In this document: one piece after another, positions 3,153 to 19,413 of the stretch
How positions within the stretch are numbered: the first letter of the stretch is position 1
Layout of the letters: the number at the start of each line of letters is the position of its first letter
The notes under the pieces: generated by a model
Told to the model about the DNA's origin: nothing
What the model saw: the letters and a program-made list of their open reading frames with translations, nothing else
Databases searched by the model: none
Translations under genes and position numbers: made by a program
Assembly: GCA_022360105.1 (NCBI GenBank)
Contig: JAKSDL010000713.1
Span: 1 to 19,413 of the forward strand
DNA from: Pseudomonadota bacterium
GTDB lineage: Bacteria > SAR324 > XYD2-FULL-50-16 > JAHJRI01
Length of the DNA stretch: 19,413 nucleotides
Direction of reading: 5' to 3'

Positions 3153-4460
3153 ATGGACAAGACCGCCTATTTTGATTTTATTAATCAATTGACAGCTACT
3201 GAAATCGATCTGCTGCAGACTTTTGCCAGAAACAGGGTTATGGAACCTTTTGAAGGTCAGTCAGGTTTGGATACCCTACAGGAGACAAATCAGAAATTAA
3301 GTTCCGGTATCGATAAAATTAAGGAATGGAATAAAAATAGAAAAACGAAAAAGGAGCAAAAAGATTTTTTCAGTAAACAGCTTATAAACACGCCCGTTAC
3401 ACCAATTTTGGAAAGACTTGGCAAACTGGCATCTGATGTTTCCAGCTTAACGAAAGCCAAATTCAAACAAATGGAGCCGGTCATCAAAGAGTTGATGTTT
3501 GACTTCTTGAAAAAAGGATTGGAACTCAGCAGAAATGATGATTATGAATCATGGATTATTTCCAGATCTTCCGAGATTCTGGACAGGCAGATAAGCAGAA
3601 TCGAAGATATCAGGGATCTATCCGAAAGTGAGCGACAGAAGTTAATTGAAACCTCCTATCCCTATCGAAGTCAAAAATACAGCCTGTTACTGGATTCGTT
3701 TGACAAATCAGTCAGCGTTTTTCTAGGAGCCATTGTAGCTACCAATCTACCGGGTACCGGTATTCTAGTGAGCTTGATAAACATGGTGAAGACCATGATA
3801 CGCATGTCAAATCGAATTAGTTCCCTGGCGGTTATTTACGGCAGAAAGGTTGAAAACCTCTCAGGATTATTTGAAACCTGCGCGCTCCTACTGAATTCAA
3901 TAGAAGATTGGGATAAAAACAGAGATCATATTCCGCTTGAACCGGGCGTACTTGAGAGATTGTTTGAAGAAGATAAAGGAGATTTTGAAGCCGAACTGGC
4001 CAAATTTATTGAAGCCGTCGGTACTAAAGAGCTCTATATTGCAATACCGGGGATTGGGATGCTGAGCCTTGGAAAGATTAACCTGGACAATTTAAAAATC
4101 GATTTGGTGGTGGAAAACCTGATGCAGGATTACCATCTGTCCTATCAGATTGAGAATTCAGATAACAGATCTCATCTGGCAGAAATTATTGAAGATTTCG
4201 AAATGATTTTCAAAGAGTTCAAAGCGGCTGATTATTATACCGTTTTGAGAAACAAAAGACGTTTGGAACAGAAGTCAGGGACTGTTAAAAACATTGGTAG
4301 TTTTTTCAAAACAATGGTTGGCAGTGAAGATGAGTTGGATGCCTTAAGATCTGATCTGGCGACCGATGCCAGGATTGTGTTTAATTCCGTAGCGCCTTTG
4401 TCCAAAGAGAAAAGAACAGTCCGTATTCAGGAAATCGTTGAGGAGTTGGCTTCGCGTTAA
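3153..4460 (+). CDS. Conserved-looking protein of unknown function, weakly EcsC-like
   Basis: 435 residues; not recognised with certainty. It has no signal peptide. The N-terminal 130 residues are charged and probably helical (a lysine-rich run near residues 60-70). A hydrophobic, glycine-containing stretch at residues 186-212, followed by an amphipathic part ending in AVIYGRK at 226-232, resembles the central GA...PG...IYG pattern of EcsC-family proteins, which is the only family hint I see. A second short apolar segment, IAIPGIGMLSLG, lies near residue 295. The C-terminal third is again charged and helical. It stands alone: divergent from hisD with 215 bases between them and separated by 239 bases from rpoN. 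No ribosome binding site precedes the ATG. Function not assigned; a membrane-surface protein is one inference from the apolar core. Confidence 0.7.
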   Translation: MDKTAYFDFINQLTATEIDLLQTFARNRVMEPFEGQSGLDTLQETNQKLSSGIDKIKEWNKNRKTKKEQKDFFSKQLINTPVTPILERLGKLASDVSSLTKAKFKQMEPVIKELMFDFLKKGLELSRNDDYESWIISRSSEILDRQISRIEDIRDLSESERQKLIETSYPYRSQKYSLLLDSFDKSVSVFLGAIVATNLPGTGILVSLINMVKTMIRMSNRISSLAVIYGRKVENLSGLFETCALLLNSIEDWDKNRDHIPLEPGVLERLFEEDKGDFEAELAKFIEAVGTKELYIAIPGIGMLSLGKINLDNLKIDLVVENLMQDYHLSYQIENSDNRSHLAEIIEDFEMIFKEFKAADYYTVLRNKRRLEQKSGTVKNIGSFFKTMVGSEDELDALRSDLATDARIVFNSVAPLSKEKRTVRIQEIVEELASR

Positions 4461-6469: not shown

Positions 6470-6512
6470 ATAAGTTTTCCTGTTTTGAACCTATAATTTG
6501 AGAGTTAGCCAT

Positions 6513-6908
6513 ATGAGCCAGTATTTTTCGAAAGTAGTTGAATATGCTGAAACACTGGGCCTTGACGTCATTCATAAAGATGACAAAGAGGAGCTGATTG
6601 TTGTTTCAAACGAAGACAAGGGAATATACAACTTAATCATCGACTGTGAAGAAACCATTCTGATTTTCGAACAGCTTATTTACGGAATAAGTAGTCCTTC
6701 TGAAAAGCATTTTCTGAGACTTCTACAAATGAACCGTACATTGATTCATGGTGCTTTTGTTGTGGATGAGGAAGGAAAGCAGGTTATTTTCAGGGATACC
6801 CTCCAACTGGAGAACCTGGATTTTAATGAGTTCGAAGGAACTATAAATGCCTTGAGTCTCGGGCTGGCAGAATATTCCACCGAATTACTAACATTAAACA
6901 AGAATTAA
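6513..6908 (+). CDS. YbjN / CesT-Tir chaperone-fold small protein
   Basis: 131 residues, no signal peptide or membrane segment, so cytoplasmic. The arrangement (an N-terminal helix, alternating beta strands, then LLQMNRTLIHGAFVVDEEGKQVIF followed by a C-terminal helix) is that of the YbjN/type III secretion chaperone-like fold; this is a fold-level call without catalytic residues. The frame opens at a TTG at 6498, but the ATG at 6513 is preferred because GAGAG (6500-6504) is placed correctly for it. The stop is 18 bases before the pspA start, so the two genes are almost certainly co-transcribed. Proteins of this type are known as neighbours of PspA in other bacteria, which suggests a role with PspA in envelope stress; that role is inference. 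Confidence 0.7.
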   Translation: MSQYFSKVVEYAETLGLDVIHKDDKEELIVVSNEDKGIYNLIIDCEETILIFEQLIYGISSPSEKHFLRLLQMNRTLIHGAFVVDEEGKQVIFRDTLQLENLDFNEFEGTINALSLGLAEYSTELLTLNKN

Positions 6909-10740: not shown

Positions 10741-12165
10741 CTATTTTGATACCAGCTCTCTATAAAACTTCCAATTGTATCCTAAAACCAGATAGGCAAA
10801 TGAAACAAGGAATACAGTCCAAAACAAAATTTGGGAGTTACCCGGCATCGATCCAAACAGCACGGCCATAATAATAAACGAAAGAATTACCACCTTAATC
10901 AATTTTGGTATGGCTGGCAGGATAACCCGTCCAAAATGTATATACTTAATTTTCGAAACCATCAATGCGGCAATCAGCACGACAAATCCTATTTTTATGG
11001 ATTGACTGATCTGTAATAATACAACAGAACCACTGACCAAGGCCGCTGCCGGGGAAGGAAGTCCGTTAAATATTTGAACTCCGCTTTCAACCCCCTCTTT
11101 CCTTTTGTTGATAACGAATCGATATAATCTAAATACTGTGCAAATAAAATGCAAAAGCGCAAGGCCGATCCCCAGAAAGCTGTGCTTAAAAGCAGCCCAG
11201 ATAACAAGAGCTATGGTACCACCGAAATTTGTTCCATCGGCCAGATCATCAAACAATTCCCCTTTTGGCGTACTGCCCCATTTATCCGCTGCCCTTCCAT
11301 CAAACATATCCAAAAACTGGCCTAAAAAGACAAGTGAAAAAGCCAGCTCAAGATAGCGTGTTTTCACTAGTCTTTGAATCCAGGGGTAATCATTTAAAAA
11401 GGAAATGTCGGGATTAAAAAAGCTGAATATCAAAACAAGAGAAATCCCACAAAGTCCGCATACAAGGTTCATTAGGCTAAGAATGTTGGCATACCAGTAG
11501 TTGGGAATGACTTTGAAGAACATGCTGCAAAAGGAGAGAAACACGGCACCGTTTAAGGTGGCCACATAAATATTCCAAGTATTTTCGGGGTAGTAAACCT
11601 GTTGCATGGTAATAAGCACCAGGGTCAGGGCTGCAAGAAAAGTTTTCGATTTCCCAAAAAGGTTGGCTGCCTTATTGGAAATAAAATGTCTGGAAACAGT
11701 TCCGACAATATCAAAAAATAAAAACACGATAACTGCTAACATTGGTATGACATTGACATAAGCAAAATAGAACAAAGGCGGGAAAATCAATAATTTGTCT
11801 GATAAAGGATCGATGCTTTCCCCTTCGACCGAGTGCAAATCGAAATACCTTGCAATGGTTCCATCGGTGATATCGGTTATCATCCAAAACGCAAAACATA
11901 GAATACCCGCATGTTGCCAAATAGTTTCAGTCTCACCCGGATATAGAACAATACCCATATGATACAATAGCACCGAAACAACACCCATGGGATACCGACA
12001 GCGACTGATGAAATTTGGATGCAGCCAAAATTTGGATTGTACCCATTTGGTCGCGCCAGGTGTCCTGGACATCTTGAACAGCGTGTACCTTTCTAATGCA
12101 AACATAAGCAATACAGGTATGACAGACTTGTAAACAACAGGTGGAACAAGGTCGAAAAAATACAT
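10741..12165 (-). CDS. Fused PgsA-like and PssA-like CDP-alcohol phosphatidyltransferase
   Basis: 474 residues, about twice the usual length, made of two CDP-alcohol phosphatidyltransferase domains. Domain 1 (about 45-215) opens with HPNFISRCR, like the PNxxTxxR start of PgsA, and has a complete catalytic motif D98xxD101-G-xx-A105-R106-x8-G115-xxx-D119-xxx-D123, ending DPLSDKLL as in PgsA. Domain 2 (about 221-474) opens with [11 protein letters not shown], as in phosphatidylserine synthases, and has D286xxD289-G-xx-A293 then Asp294 where Arg is expected, G302-xxx-D306-xxx-D310, ending [10 protein letters not shown] like PssA's DSLADxxxFG. Many hydrophobic segments place it in the inner membrane. 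The first gene of the operon; transaldolase follows 31 bases later. No ribosome binding site is visible before the ATG. Domain products (phosphatidylglycerol phosphate, phosphatidylserine or another alcohol) are inferred from motif style only. Confidence 0.85.
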
Positions 12166-15636: not shown

Positions 15637-16284
15637 GTGAAACGTTACATTATGACTGGTCTCTACCTATCGGCCTTTCGCAAAAACCTAATGCTTTTGC
15701 CATGTTGCATCTTGGTGTTTTCATCAATCAGTTCGGCACAACAATTGGTGCACTTTTCGGCAATGGTTCATTATGAGCTTATGGAACAAAACTGGCCGGG
15801 ATATGATTTAACCCTGATTTTTCAAAATAGTTATGGACTGCGTTTTTCCTTGATGCAGGAAATGGAGTTTTTGGAAACAATTTCAGATGAGGATGGAAGT
15901 GTTAAGAAAAACAATTTTGAAGGAGATCTGAAACTACCCATGTTTCTTAAAATGCTGGATTTTAAGACGTTCGAGGAAGGCCCTGCAAAGGTTTTTGACT
16001 TTGTTTCCGCATACGTGGGGGTTGGTTACAATACTTTGGAACTGACAATGAATCAAAAAAAGTATTATGCTAGTGCAGGCGAACTTGTAAAAAAAACAAG
16101 AGATGAGACTGTTCATTCAAAGGTTGGTGCGTTTTCCGTTGGCATGTATGGCGGAGATAGTTTTTTGGTGATCGACTTCAGACTGCGCTACATTAGAGGG
16201 ACTATAGAATCTTCCGACTATGTCAAGGAAGAGAACGAGTTTGATAAATGGATGATGATCGTATCTCTTGGGTTCGGAATTTGA
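15637..16284 (+). CDS. Exported protein of unknown function, possibly an outer-membrane beta-barrel
   Basis: 215 residues from a GTG at 15637; an ATG at 15652 is equally possible, and neither has a clear ribosome binding site. An N-terminal signal peptide is visible: basic residues, a hydrophobic core LMLLPCCILVFSS, and a probable signal peptidase I site after SSA (residue 34, counted from the GTG). The mature part has alternating polar/apolar stretches with many aromatic residues (YDLTLIFQNSYGLRFSL, FDFVSAYVGVGYNTLEL, FLVIDFRLRYIRG, WMMIVSLGFGI) like the strands of a small beta-barrel, and a charged middle. I know no family for it. The last residue is Ile rather than the aromatic one usual in barrels. 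It stands alone, 191 bases after dprA. Confidence 0.6.
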   Translation: MKRYIMTGLYLSAFRKNLMLLPCCILVFSSISSAQQLVHFSAMVHYELMEQNWPGYDLTLIFQNSYGLRFSLMQEMEFLETISDEDGSVKKNNFEGDLKLPMFLKMLDFKTFEEGPAKVFDFVSAYVGVGYNTLELTMNQKKYYASAGELVKKTRDETVHSKVGAFSVGMYGGDSFLVIDFRLRYIRGTIESSDYVKEENEFDKWMMIVSLGFGI

Positions 16285-17124: not shown

Positions 17125-19413
17125 ATGCCTCAGTGGGATTCGGACAAGTATTTTTCATTTAAAGATGCAAACAAAGAATGTATTCAGATCGCAGCTGACC
17201 TGTTAAACAGTTATCCGCTGACAAGAGGCTGTCTGGAAACATTGGGGCAAGAGCTGAAAGACCAACTTCAATTCGGCTTTTTCAATAAGGACTATGACAT
17301 CATTGTCCAGGGTGAATCCGGAAGAGATATTTTTCTTCTGTGTACAGGCACTATGGACGTTTTGGTAGCCGGTCAGGTTGTTGTGCAGATGAAATCGCCA
17401 ACGTTGGTTGGCGACAAGGGAATTGTTTCAGCTAATTCCGAGCGGGCAGCAACAATCAGGATCTCCAGTGACAAACCTGCCTTGGTTATTAAAATTCCCA
17501 TGGGAAGCTTTATCAGGGATTTTAAGGATACCAACATTGAGGATGAAAGCTTTAATCAAGAGAAGAAGATCTTTGAAAACGTCTTTCAGACCGTACAGGA
17601 ACGTTTGTTTGAGTTCATCTATCTCCAAAAAACCTTGTGGGAGCAGGCGACAAATACTATACAAGCCATAAACCAGCAGATTTATGCCAAACAATTGGAT
17701 AACCAGATGGATCCAAAGAATTGGGATGCAGAAGCCTGGGGTATAGCTCAAACCTATCTCAAATCAAAGTTTGGTATAAACTGGCCCGGAAACATTCCCG
17801 TCAATGGCAAATCAATCAATGCTTTCCTGCGGAAGTATTTCGATATGAAATACAAGAATGCAACCCAGCCAAATCAACTTGCCGCCAAACAAATGGAATG
17901 GCGTAATACCCTGACGGAAATAGCTGGCAGAGTGTCAAAAGCTGTTCCTGATGAAAAAAAGGCCTTCCCCCCTCTGGACCTGGAATTATTTAATCCCAGC
18001 ATTTATCGAATGCGGCTGACAGGTCTTCAGAATCAGTTGGAAAAAAGGTATGCCGAACGCATGGTAAGTAAGGATCCTGAAAAAACGCAAAGTCAGGGCA
18101 GTTTTTACGGCAAGGGTGAGCGTTCGAACGAATTCAATTTGCAGTTTTTTCTGGAGTACTTTAATAAAATGTACAAAATTAAAAACTCCAGAAGACTGCA
18201 AGCCCAGGTAGGGCAGAAGTGTGCATTAATTGCTGCGGAGTGTGAGAATAACTTTAACTCCTCCGTTGTTAAAATGCAGAAGTTTCTGGAGGAAGTAAAA
18301 GCTCGAAACATATCGCTGGGTGAGAGCAGTAACAAGAAGTCAGAAGCCGACCCAGCAACATTGAAAAGCTGGATTGCCGCATTGATTCGTGGAATACACC
18401 ATTACAGAGATTCTTCTCCTTCCATCGATGGTCAAACTTTAGGAGTTATCAAATTTTCCGAGAATACCTTCCCTAATTTTACGAACTTGGTAAAGGCACA
18501 TCGAGTGCAGTTTACCAGGGAAAAAATGACTCAGGCGTTTGTCAACCTGGTAAAGGCTACCCAGTTCCAGTCGGAATTCCTTTCCAAGCAGGTTCTTTAC
18601 AATATTTTCCATCTGTGTGGAATCGAGAGGGGGGATACCATTCCTGAACATGAGCTGAGATCAAGCTTTTGGTTTCCGCTGACAAATAGCCTGGTTTTAA
18701 ATTACGGCGAAACTAACCTGTTTACCATAAAATCAACCTCACCTGTTGGAGGTGTTTTTTGGAATACGGATTTGTCAGAACAGGATCCTAAGGGCGGAAA
18801 AGATATTACCATTGAAACAGAGGAAGATTCGATTATCATGGTGTTACCCATGCGTCGGCTTCCATGGGAGAGTGCTCCAAAACCAAGCGATGATGCTTTT
18901 GTTGAACAATATATGCCTTTGATGCAATGGTTCATCGACAAAAACATCGAATTTTTGCTGGACCTTCAATCTCAAAGAGATGAAATAGTCGAAGAGTGGA
19001 CCGAAATCAGGGATGGCATTGCTCGTTCCGAAAAAATCGCGGTCTTCGAGCAAAAGGCTCTTAAATTGCCTAAAACCGACTACGACAGAATAGTCAGCTG
19101 GCTAAACAGTACCATGGGATTGAAGCTGGATCCTAATGAAGTGATGGTGTCTAACAAGCTTTCAAAAAGGATCTATAACTATTTCCTGCATTCTGCAACT
19201 GTTGACTATCCTGAGCTTTCCATTGAGCAACGAGGAAATCAGGCTTATACAAAATGGCGGAATCTTCTGTTCGAGCTGACAGACCAAATACCAGCGCTGA
19301 ACAAAGTGGTGAGTGAGTTGCCTGGAGAAGATCCGGCACCTGTGCTTGATGTGCTGGCTAGACAGCTTTCACCGTTTGTCGCTCAATACATGGGGGATAC
19401 CTGGGAAAAGCAA
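17125..19413 (+). CDS. Large protein with an N-terminal cyclic-nucleotide-binding domain, otherwise unknown (3' end outside window)
   Basis: Open for 763 codons to the window edge with no stop. The ATG at 17125 is preceded by GGGAG ten bases upstream. Residues about 40-130 look like a cNMP-binding (CAP/CRP-type) beta-roll: FFNKDYDIIVQGESGRDIFLLCTGTMDVLV, then a phosphate-binding-cassette-like VGDKGIVSANSERAATI with the key Arg at 107; the family's usual Gly-Glu is Gly-Asp here (96-97). A helix follows, but no DNA-binding helix-turn-helix, so it is not a CRP-type regulator. Residues about 135-510 are charged and helical without a family I know. Residues about 513-580 resemble a second, degenerate beta-roll (SPVGGVFWNTDL ... 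DITIETEEDSIIMVLPM). No signal peptide or membrane segment; probably cytoplasmic. Function not assigned. Confidence 0.8.
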   Translation, partial: MPQWDSDKYFSFKDANKECIQIAADLLNSYPLTRGCLETLGQELKDQLQFGFFNKDYDIIVQGESGRDIFLLCTGTMDVLVAGQVVVQMKSPTLVGDKGIVSANSERAATIRISSDKPALVIKIPMGSFIRDFKDTNIEDESFNQEKKIFENVFQTVQERLFEFIYLQKTLWEQATNTIQAINQQIYAKQLDNQMDPKNWDAEAWGIAQTYLKSKFGINWPGNIPVNGKSINAFLRKYFDMKYKNATQPNQLAAKQMEWRNTLTEIAGRVSKAVPDEKKAFPPLDLELFNPSIYRMRLTGLQNQLEKRYAERMVSKDPEKTQSQGSFYGKGERSNEFNLQFFLEYFNKMYKIKNSRRLQAQVGQKCALIAAECENNFNSSVVKMQKFLEEVKARNISLGESSNKKSEADPATLKSWIAALIRGIHHYRDSSPSIDGQTLGVIKFSENTFPNFTNLVKAHRVQFTREKMTQAFVNLVKATQFQSEFLSKQVLYNIFHLCGIERGDTIPEHELRSSFWFPLTNSLVLNYGETNLFTIKSTSPVGGVFWNTDLSEQDPKGGKDITIETEEDSIIMVLPMRRLPWESAPKPSDDAFVEQYMPLMQWFIDKNIEFLLDLQSQRDEIVEEWTEIRDGIARSEKIAVFEQKALKLPKTDYDRIVSWLNSTMGLKLDPNEVMVSNKLSKRIYNYFLHSATVDYPELSIEQRGNQAYTKWRNLLFELTDQIPALNKVVSELPGEDPAPVLDVLARQLSPFVAQYMGDTWEKQ

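Follow-up and report, generated by a model that had tools for sequence, protein, structure and literature searches.

PgsA and PssA form the fork between anionic and phosphatidylethanolamine (PE) lipids, and textbook bacteria make them as two distinct enzymes, each with its own dosage. A gene in a 19,413-nucleotide stretch of DNA from a SAR324-lineage bacterium (contig JAKSDL010000713.1, assembly GCA_022360105.1; the whole stretch is called the window here) raises the question of whether one protein can take the place of both. The initial annotation had read positions 10741..12165 as two fused phospholipid head-group enzymes and named no strand; the open frame, 474 amino acids (aa) plus stop, is on the minus strand (12165..10741), and the plus-strand translation is riddled with stops. 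We consider it very probable that this gene is a fusion of pgsA-type and pssA-type genes encoding a bifunctional membrane enzyme, a phosphatidylglycerophosphate (PGP) synthase and phosphatidylserine (PS) synthase in one. The N half would transfer the phosphatidyl group of CDP-diacylglycerol (CDP-DAG) to glycerol-3-phosphate, giving PGP and then phosphatidylglycerol (PG) and cardiolipin, and the C half would transfer it to L-serine, giving PS and then PE via PS decarboxylase. The chemistry and folds are known, and what is new is their union displacing both separate genes; a literature search by titles and abstract openings, with subscription journals mostly outside its scope, found no earlier report of a PgsA-PssA fusion.

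The presence of two CDP-alcohol phosphatidyltransferase (CDP-AP) halves in one chain is borne out by profiles, fold and trees. Pfam CDP-OH_P_transf (PF01066) matches the fusion in two stretches (E 5e-27, 95.6 bits against a curated cut-off of 22), NCBIfam pssA (TIGR00473) matches residues 235-408 with 87 bits (cut-off 107), and NCBIfam pgsA (TIGR00560) matches residues 76-219 with 63.2 bits (cut-off 109.1). In a search of solved structures, the C half found the M. jannaschii PS synthase (MjPSS), and the N half found Staphylococcus aureus PgsA, whose alignment spans residues 47-225. The signature D1xxD2G1xxAR...G2xxxD3xxxD4 is complete in the N half (D98, D101, D119 and D123, with DPLSDK) and, except that the Arg is Asp294, also in the C half (D286, D289, D306 and D310), exactly as had been listed. 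In addition, the N half has the DPxxD motif ending, GKxK and the fold of PgsA, and the C half has the RLxRF serine-site motif, FxGLPxPA and the fold of PS synthase. According to PMC8727905, RLxRF was identified by comparison of PS and phosphatidylinositol synthases, and in the fungal PS synthase Cho1 the changes R186A, L187A and F190A nearly abolished activity and R189A gave a higher Km for serine. PMC8633023 also describes roles of PS-synthase motifs, and MjPSS R101E is reported to abolish activity. The N half is not an ordinary PgsA by score and is PgsA-type by fold, tree and motif; its putative acceptor residues are assigned from the motif alone.

The fusion is not restricted to the window. 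Out of 5.8 billion proteins searched, scoring was limited to the 7,999 candidates with the most words in common and gave 433 matches; the 120 listed homologues are tandem proteins of 383-517 aa. Public records name them CDP-alcohol phosphatidyltransferase family protein or just one of the two enzymes, so that bacteria seemingly without pgsA and pssA may have both behind vague or one-enzyme names. The fusion was found at 70 genome loci, in SAR324/Lambdaproteobacteria, Desulfuromonadales and kin, Deferrisomatales, Lentisphaerae/Victivallales and unplaced bins, as well as in one Kiritimatiellota and two Verrucomicrobia bins (the group labels of genomes used here, such as SAR324 type or Lentisphaeria type, are inferred). 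Four of these loci (L043, L068, L069 and L070) did not fit the two-motif pattern and were excluded from trees and tables, L068 and L070 being interrupted by a contig end; L041 has no N-half motif Arg. No relative of the fusion was found in viral contigs, and none of 17 matches in plasmid records covered more than 80% of the query. All four Asp residues, which the initial annotation had described as kept in both halves, are present in the N half of 120/120 and the C half of 119/120 listed homologues, with P0049 as the exception; since these were picked without regard to the motif, the motif pairing is not a chance one. Conservation was tabulated over 75 rows chosen from the listed homologues and 66 loci, 59 outside and 16 inside a Lentisphaerota-type branch. 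Invariant in all 75 are Asp98, Asp101, Asp119, Asp123, Pro120, Lys124, Arg159, Gly171, Lys172 and Lys174 in the N half and Asp286, Asp306, Asp310, Arg346, Arg349, Phe366, Gly368 and Pro370 in the C half; Asp289 is kept in 74.

The two halves have different origins. A tree built from 143 domain sequences placed the N halves among PgsA-type proteins (support 98/97) and the C halves among those of PssA type (97/84), and this split was kept (100/97 and 94/83) when the tree was rebuilt with 101 rows after removal of the longest branches. The halves thus come from two different genes that were joined, and do not fall in one single-function family, as had been raised as a possibility. Internal duplication was rejected on the same placement and on BLASTP of half against half, which gave only E 0.21. 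One chain holds two metal/CDP sites that are both conserved and that differ in ancestry. Searches with single halves found mainly fragments of tandem proteins and two eukaryotic proteins, P0142 (Kipferlia bialata) and P0143 (Spironucleus salmonicida), both from fornicate protists; these resemble only the C half, with a possible remnant of the last N-half helices in front of it, and perhaps represent a bacterial fusion gene that was transferred and then shortened, with gene-model truncation as the alternative. The halves also occur as two proteins, P0174 and P0135, on contigs that are both 814,415 bp long; P0174 becomes unrelated letters in mid-domain, which is likely a frameshift, real or from sequencing.

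We searched 68 genomes of the 70 loci, excluding those of L068 and L070. In 33 (10 of 22 plus 23 of 46) there are exactly two PF01066 matches, both within the fusion frame, so that in many carriers the fusion would be the sole PF01066 enzyme for both steps. Lgt uses PG, and PS decarboxylase (Psd) uses PS; among these 33 fusion-only genomes, Psd is present in 29, Lgt in 30 and both in 26. As to a PLD-type PS synthase as a hidden source of PS, PLDc_2 is absent from 12 of the 33, of which 10 have Psd and eight have both Psd and Lgt; the other 21 have unclassified PLDc_2 proteins. Two genomes, G070 (total 3.2 Mb, contig C1 of 3,192,352 bp) and G085 (total 4.1 Mb, contig C1 of 4,125,859 bp), are effectively single contigs with two PF01066 matches each, and in both the fusion itself was read. 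The remaining 35 carrier genomes hold canonical PgsA in 13 cases, a PssA-like protein in 12 and both in eight; the carriers with these separate genes are all Desulfuromonadales-type or unplaced deltaproteobacterial bins.

Comparison of carriers with related non-carriers shows that the separate genes were replaced by the fusion in several groups. First, in the Lentisphaeria-type class of G020 (34 genomes, completeness at least 95%), where all 28 PgsA and 28 PssA candidates were read, PgsA and PssA are present in 28/28 non-carriers, and the six carriers have no intact pgsA and a single pssA, in G121. The PssA proteins fit the pattern in 27 of 28 cases, the exception, L229, having GLPSTG and 95.6 bits for TIGR00473. 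Second, in the SAR324 class of G002 (18 genomes, completeness at least 90%), a PgsA-like protein occurs in 12/12 non-carriers and 0/6 carriers, and the two of these 12 proteins that were scanned both pass the PgsA cut-off. Three extra PF01066 proteins encoded by the SAR324-type carriers G001 and G004 match inositol-phosphate types best, at scores far below cut-off, and the remaining extra ones have motifs of the same kinds. G001, whose fusion is the nearest among the 70 loci to that of the window (93% identity), holds the fusion, two such inositol-phosphate-type-like proteins, Psd and Lgt. Third, the order of G014 was represented by 58 genomes (completeness at least 97%), 23 carriers, in all of which the fusion was read, and 35 non-carriers. 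Here a PF01066 match of at least 135 bits was counted as pgsA, and one of 83-96 bits as pssA if it lay outside a fusion frame and did not have a DPxxD-type motif; the listing reached down to E ~2e-13, and most of the 45 pgsA and 44 pssA were assigned from it. By these definitions, pgsA is present in 13/23 carriers versus 32/35 non-carriers (those without it being G105, G107 and G115) and pssA in 10/23 versus 34/35, and eight of the 23 carriers lack both. Within this order, some lineages have the older separate genes alongside the fusion, and others have the fusion but lack them. Profiles, fold, trees, conservation and the fusion-only genomes together support the bifunctional reading, which is still a prediction with respect to the exact acceptors and to both halves being active in one molecule.

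Several observations weigh against this reading. Both NCBIfam scores are under their curated cut-offs; some separate Lentisphaeria PssA proteins likewise fall below that of TIGR00473. Many carrier genomes are metagenome bins. PgpA is present in 9/9 fusion-only genomes of Desulfuromonadales/Deferrisomatales type, which makes only 9/33 overall (0/24 outside that type), other PGP phosphatases not having been searched. The Lentisphaeria-type carrier G018 has a PgsA-like gene (L151) split over two frames, either a decaying, broken pgsA or an assembly error. Intact separate pgsA and pssA, for which a survey had been proposed, do not occur together beside the fusion in SAR324-class carriers (0/6 with pgsA) or Lentisphaeria-type carriers (0/6 with intact pgsA, 1/6 with pssA); in the G014 order, eight of 23 carriers have both canonical genes and seven more have one. 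The count there excluded paralogues that resemble PgsA and are about 190 aa long (96-113 bits for TIGR00560, whose cut-off is 109.1), and G071, counted as lacking pgsA, has a 185-aa paralogue at 113 bits. When these paralogues are counted, pgsA is found in 16/23 carriers versus 33/35 non-carriers (p 0.02), and carriers with neither gene drop from eight to six of 23 by removal of G071 and G078; if the PssA-side paralogue L167 of G032 (143-sequence tree) is counted, pssA rises to 11/23 carriers. Such p-values overstate the evidence because genomes within one group are related, and more weight lies on the fact that three groups show the pattern.

The acceptor of the C half deserves separate consideration, because MjPSS Ala59 and Ser63 correspond to Glu303 and Asp307 in the fusion and another acceptor is therefore possible (this mapping, with Arg49 to Asp294, is our own, from the solved-structure alignment). 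With the N half as PGP synthase, the C half could use ethanolamine, homoserine, threonine or another amino alcohol. The best reason for doubting serine as the predicted acceptor is Asp307, which replaces, in 75/75 rows and thus in both branches, the Ser63 that directly follows the third motif Asp and contacts the substrate serine. The branch holding the fusion of the window also has Glu303 in 58/59 rows, Asp or Glu at 294 in 55/59 and Lys354 in 59/59, and the 16 Lentisphaerota-type rows have Ala (12) or Pro (4) at 303 and Thr at 354 in 11. Compensation by Lys354 is only a guess, since positions 294, 303 and 354 change together but on one branch. We nevertheless judge a non-serine acceptor unlikely: the RLxRF motif, specific for PS synthases according to PMC8727905 and PMC8633023, is kept, Psd is present in 29 of the 33 fusion-only genomes (10 of these 29 also lacking PLDc_2), and separate pssA is absent more often in carriers than in non-carriers in two groups. 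Asp294 itself, which the initial annotation had taken as a possible sign of a structural role or altered substrate, is not decisive. Outside the Lentisphaerota-type branch, position 294 is Glu in 33, Asp in 22, Ala in three and Gln in one of the 59 rows, and inside it is Arg in 16/16 (Gln in the damaged G121 copy described below). MjPSS Arg49 is reported to offset the CDP-DAG phosphates, and in PMC8727905, Cho1 with the motif Arg changed to Ala had normal activity and with Glu lost more than half; the Arg-bearing fusions and these mutants weaken the earlier suggestion, and the alignment at 294 does not decide the matter.

It is very unlikely, in our estimate, that only one half is catalytic and that the other has a purely structural role, comparable to that of the second protomer in a homodimer. 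Such an arrangement would fit the solved CDP-AP enzymes, which are dimers (PMC8633023 and PMC4634129), and a one-site form seems tolerated, given that Asn replaces a catalytic Asp in the C half of the tandem homologue P0049 and that the G121 fusion has lost Arg346. However, the Asp residues are kept almost throughout the listed homologues in both halves, some genomes encode Psd and Lgt but no PF01066 protein besides the fusion, and the damaged C half of G121 coincides with a separate PssA. In G121, the fusion (L211) has Asn346, Glu307 and Ser372 in the C half and an intact N half, and the genome encodes a separate PssA-type protein (L210, 91.3 bits versus the cut-off of 107) and no separate PgsA; this is the expected outcome if the C half is a PS synthase, free to decay beside another one, although it is a single case. 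The C half of P0049, with Asn289, Pro293, Val302, Ile350 and Thr372, is another candidate for lost activity. It is likewise very unlikely that the fusion is a specialised addition and that pgsA and pssA seem to be missing owing to incomplete bins or undetected divergent enzymes, since the prevalence of metagenome bins among the surveyed carriers, the retention of all three genes in 8/23 G014-order carriers, the G071 paralogue above the PgsA cut-off and the split gene of G018 are outweighed by the fusion-only single contigs of G070 and G085 (3.19 and 4.13 Mb) and by an absence of separate genes seen repeatedly, in three groups, and far more often in carriers than in non-carriers.

For the bifunctional PGP and PS synthase, a one-to-one fusion replacing both enzymes fixes their ratio at the gene, and lipid balance must therefore come from kinetics or substrate supply. 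The two halves presumably associate with one another where CDP-AP enzymes usually form a homodimer. We tentatively propose, as a possibility we would put at somewhat below even, that this built-in heterodimer, with its halves face to face, sets and perhaps senses the PG/PE split of CDP-DAG, and that the joined halves were transferred among SAR324, Desulfuromonadia and Lentisphaerota, displacing the separate genes on each occasion.

The features of the locus are collected in the table. The three genes after the fusion form a possible operon linking phospholipid and lipopolysaccharide genes in SAR324. In 10 SAR324-type loci (L001-L009 and L042) the fusion is followed by genes for the transaldolase and the KdsD-like protein, and in nine by the acyltransferase gene; these neighbours occur in none of the other loci among the 70; because they are confined to SAR324-type loci, they give no functional link for the wider family. 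Elsewhere in the window, the long frames at 3153-4460, 15637-16284 and 17125-19413 have no Pfam match at E 0.001 and have relatives in two, eight and four SAR324-type loci, respectively. A 136-aa protein at 6498-6908, matching CesT_Tir_1 (E 3e-46) and weakly YbjN, is encoded directly before a PspA/IM30 gene, and both have relatives in seven SAR324-type loci.

Table. Positions of the fusion gene, its parts and the genes downstream of it in the window.
Feature	Position	Strand	Remarks
Tandem CDP-AP gene (PgsA-type half, then PssA-type half)	10741..12165	-	474 aa + stop
N half, residues 1-219	11509..12165	-	PgsA fold preceded by an additional N-terminal helix (9-34)
N-half CDP-AP motif, residues 98-123 (DITDGTIAR...GESIDPLSD)	11797..11874	-	complete, with Arg106
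GKxK, residues 171-174	11644..11655	-	same in separate PgsA proteins examined; Gly171, Lys172 and Lys174 invariant in 75/75 rows
C half, residues 220-474	10744..11508	-	fold of PS synthases; like MjPSS, with eight main helices and two short strands
C-half CDP-AP motif, residues 286-310 (DMFDGRAAD...GELFDDLAD)	11236..11310	-	four Asp kept
Asp294 codon	11284..11286	-	Asp in place of motif Arg
RLYRF, residues 346-350	11116..11130	-	PS-synthase serine-site motif (MjPSS R101/R104/F105; Cho1 R186/L187/R189/F190)
FNGLPSPA, residues 366-373	11047..11070	-	matches FxGLPxPA of PssA proteins
Transaldolase	10709-10065	-	downstream of fusion, closely spaced
KdsD-like SIS+CBS protein	10056-9091	-	closely spaced
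Lipid A acyltransferase family protein	9060-8155	-	closely spaced

Compared with known systems, the fusion has several distinct features. Relative to PgsA (TIGR00560; S. aureus PgsA 7DRJ/7DRK), it adds a second enzyme and an extra N-terminal helix, and scores 63.2 bits versus 109.1. Relative to PS synthases (TIGR00473; MjPSS 7B1K/7POW; fungal Cho1), the motif Arg is replaced in the branch of the window and the PS synthase domain sits behind a PgsA half; compared with MjPSS, Asp307 stands for Ser63 and the motif loop is one residue shorter. Another tandem protein, which we call t2 (475-552 aa), likewise has two CDP-AP domains per chain and is encoded by frames in 12/12 fusion-less SAR324-class genomes (among them L202-L209, in G146, G148-G151, G153, G154 and G157). 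Its C half is PssA-like (83.8 bits in L203) and, like that of the fusion, on the PssA side of the trees, as sister to the fusion C half in the 143-sequence tree (97/86) and not resolved in the 101-row tree. Its N half is aberrant in L202, L203, L207 and L209, with the motif Arg changed to Val, Glu, Asp or Ala and an Arg one place on, and all 12 t2 carriers keep a separate PgsA, unlike the SAR324-class carriers of the fusion. The bifunctional IPCT-DIPPS protein of Archaeoglobus fulgidus (4MND) also joins a CDP-AP domain to another enzyme; its partner, according to a reference title in PMC4634129, is a cytidylyltransferase, whereas the partner in the fusion is a second CDP-AP domain, predicted to serve another head group.
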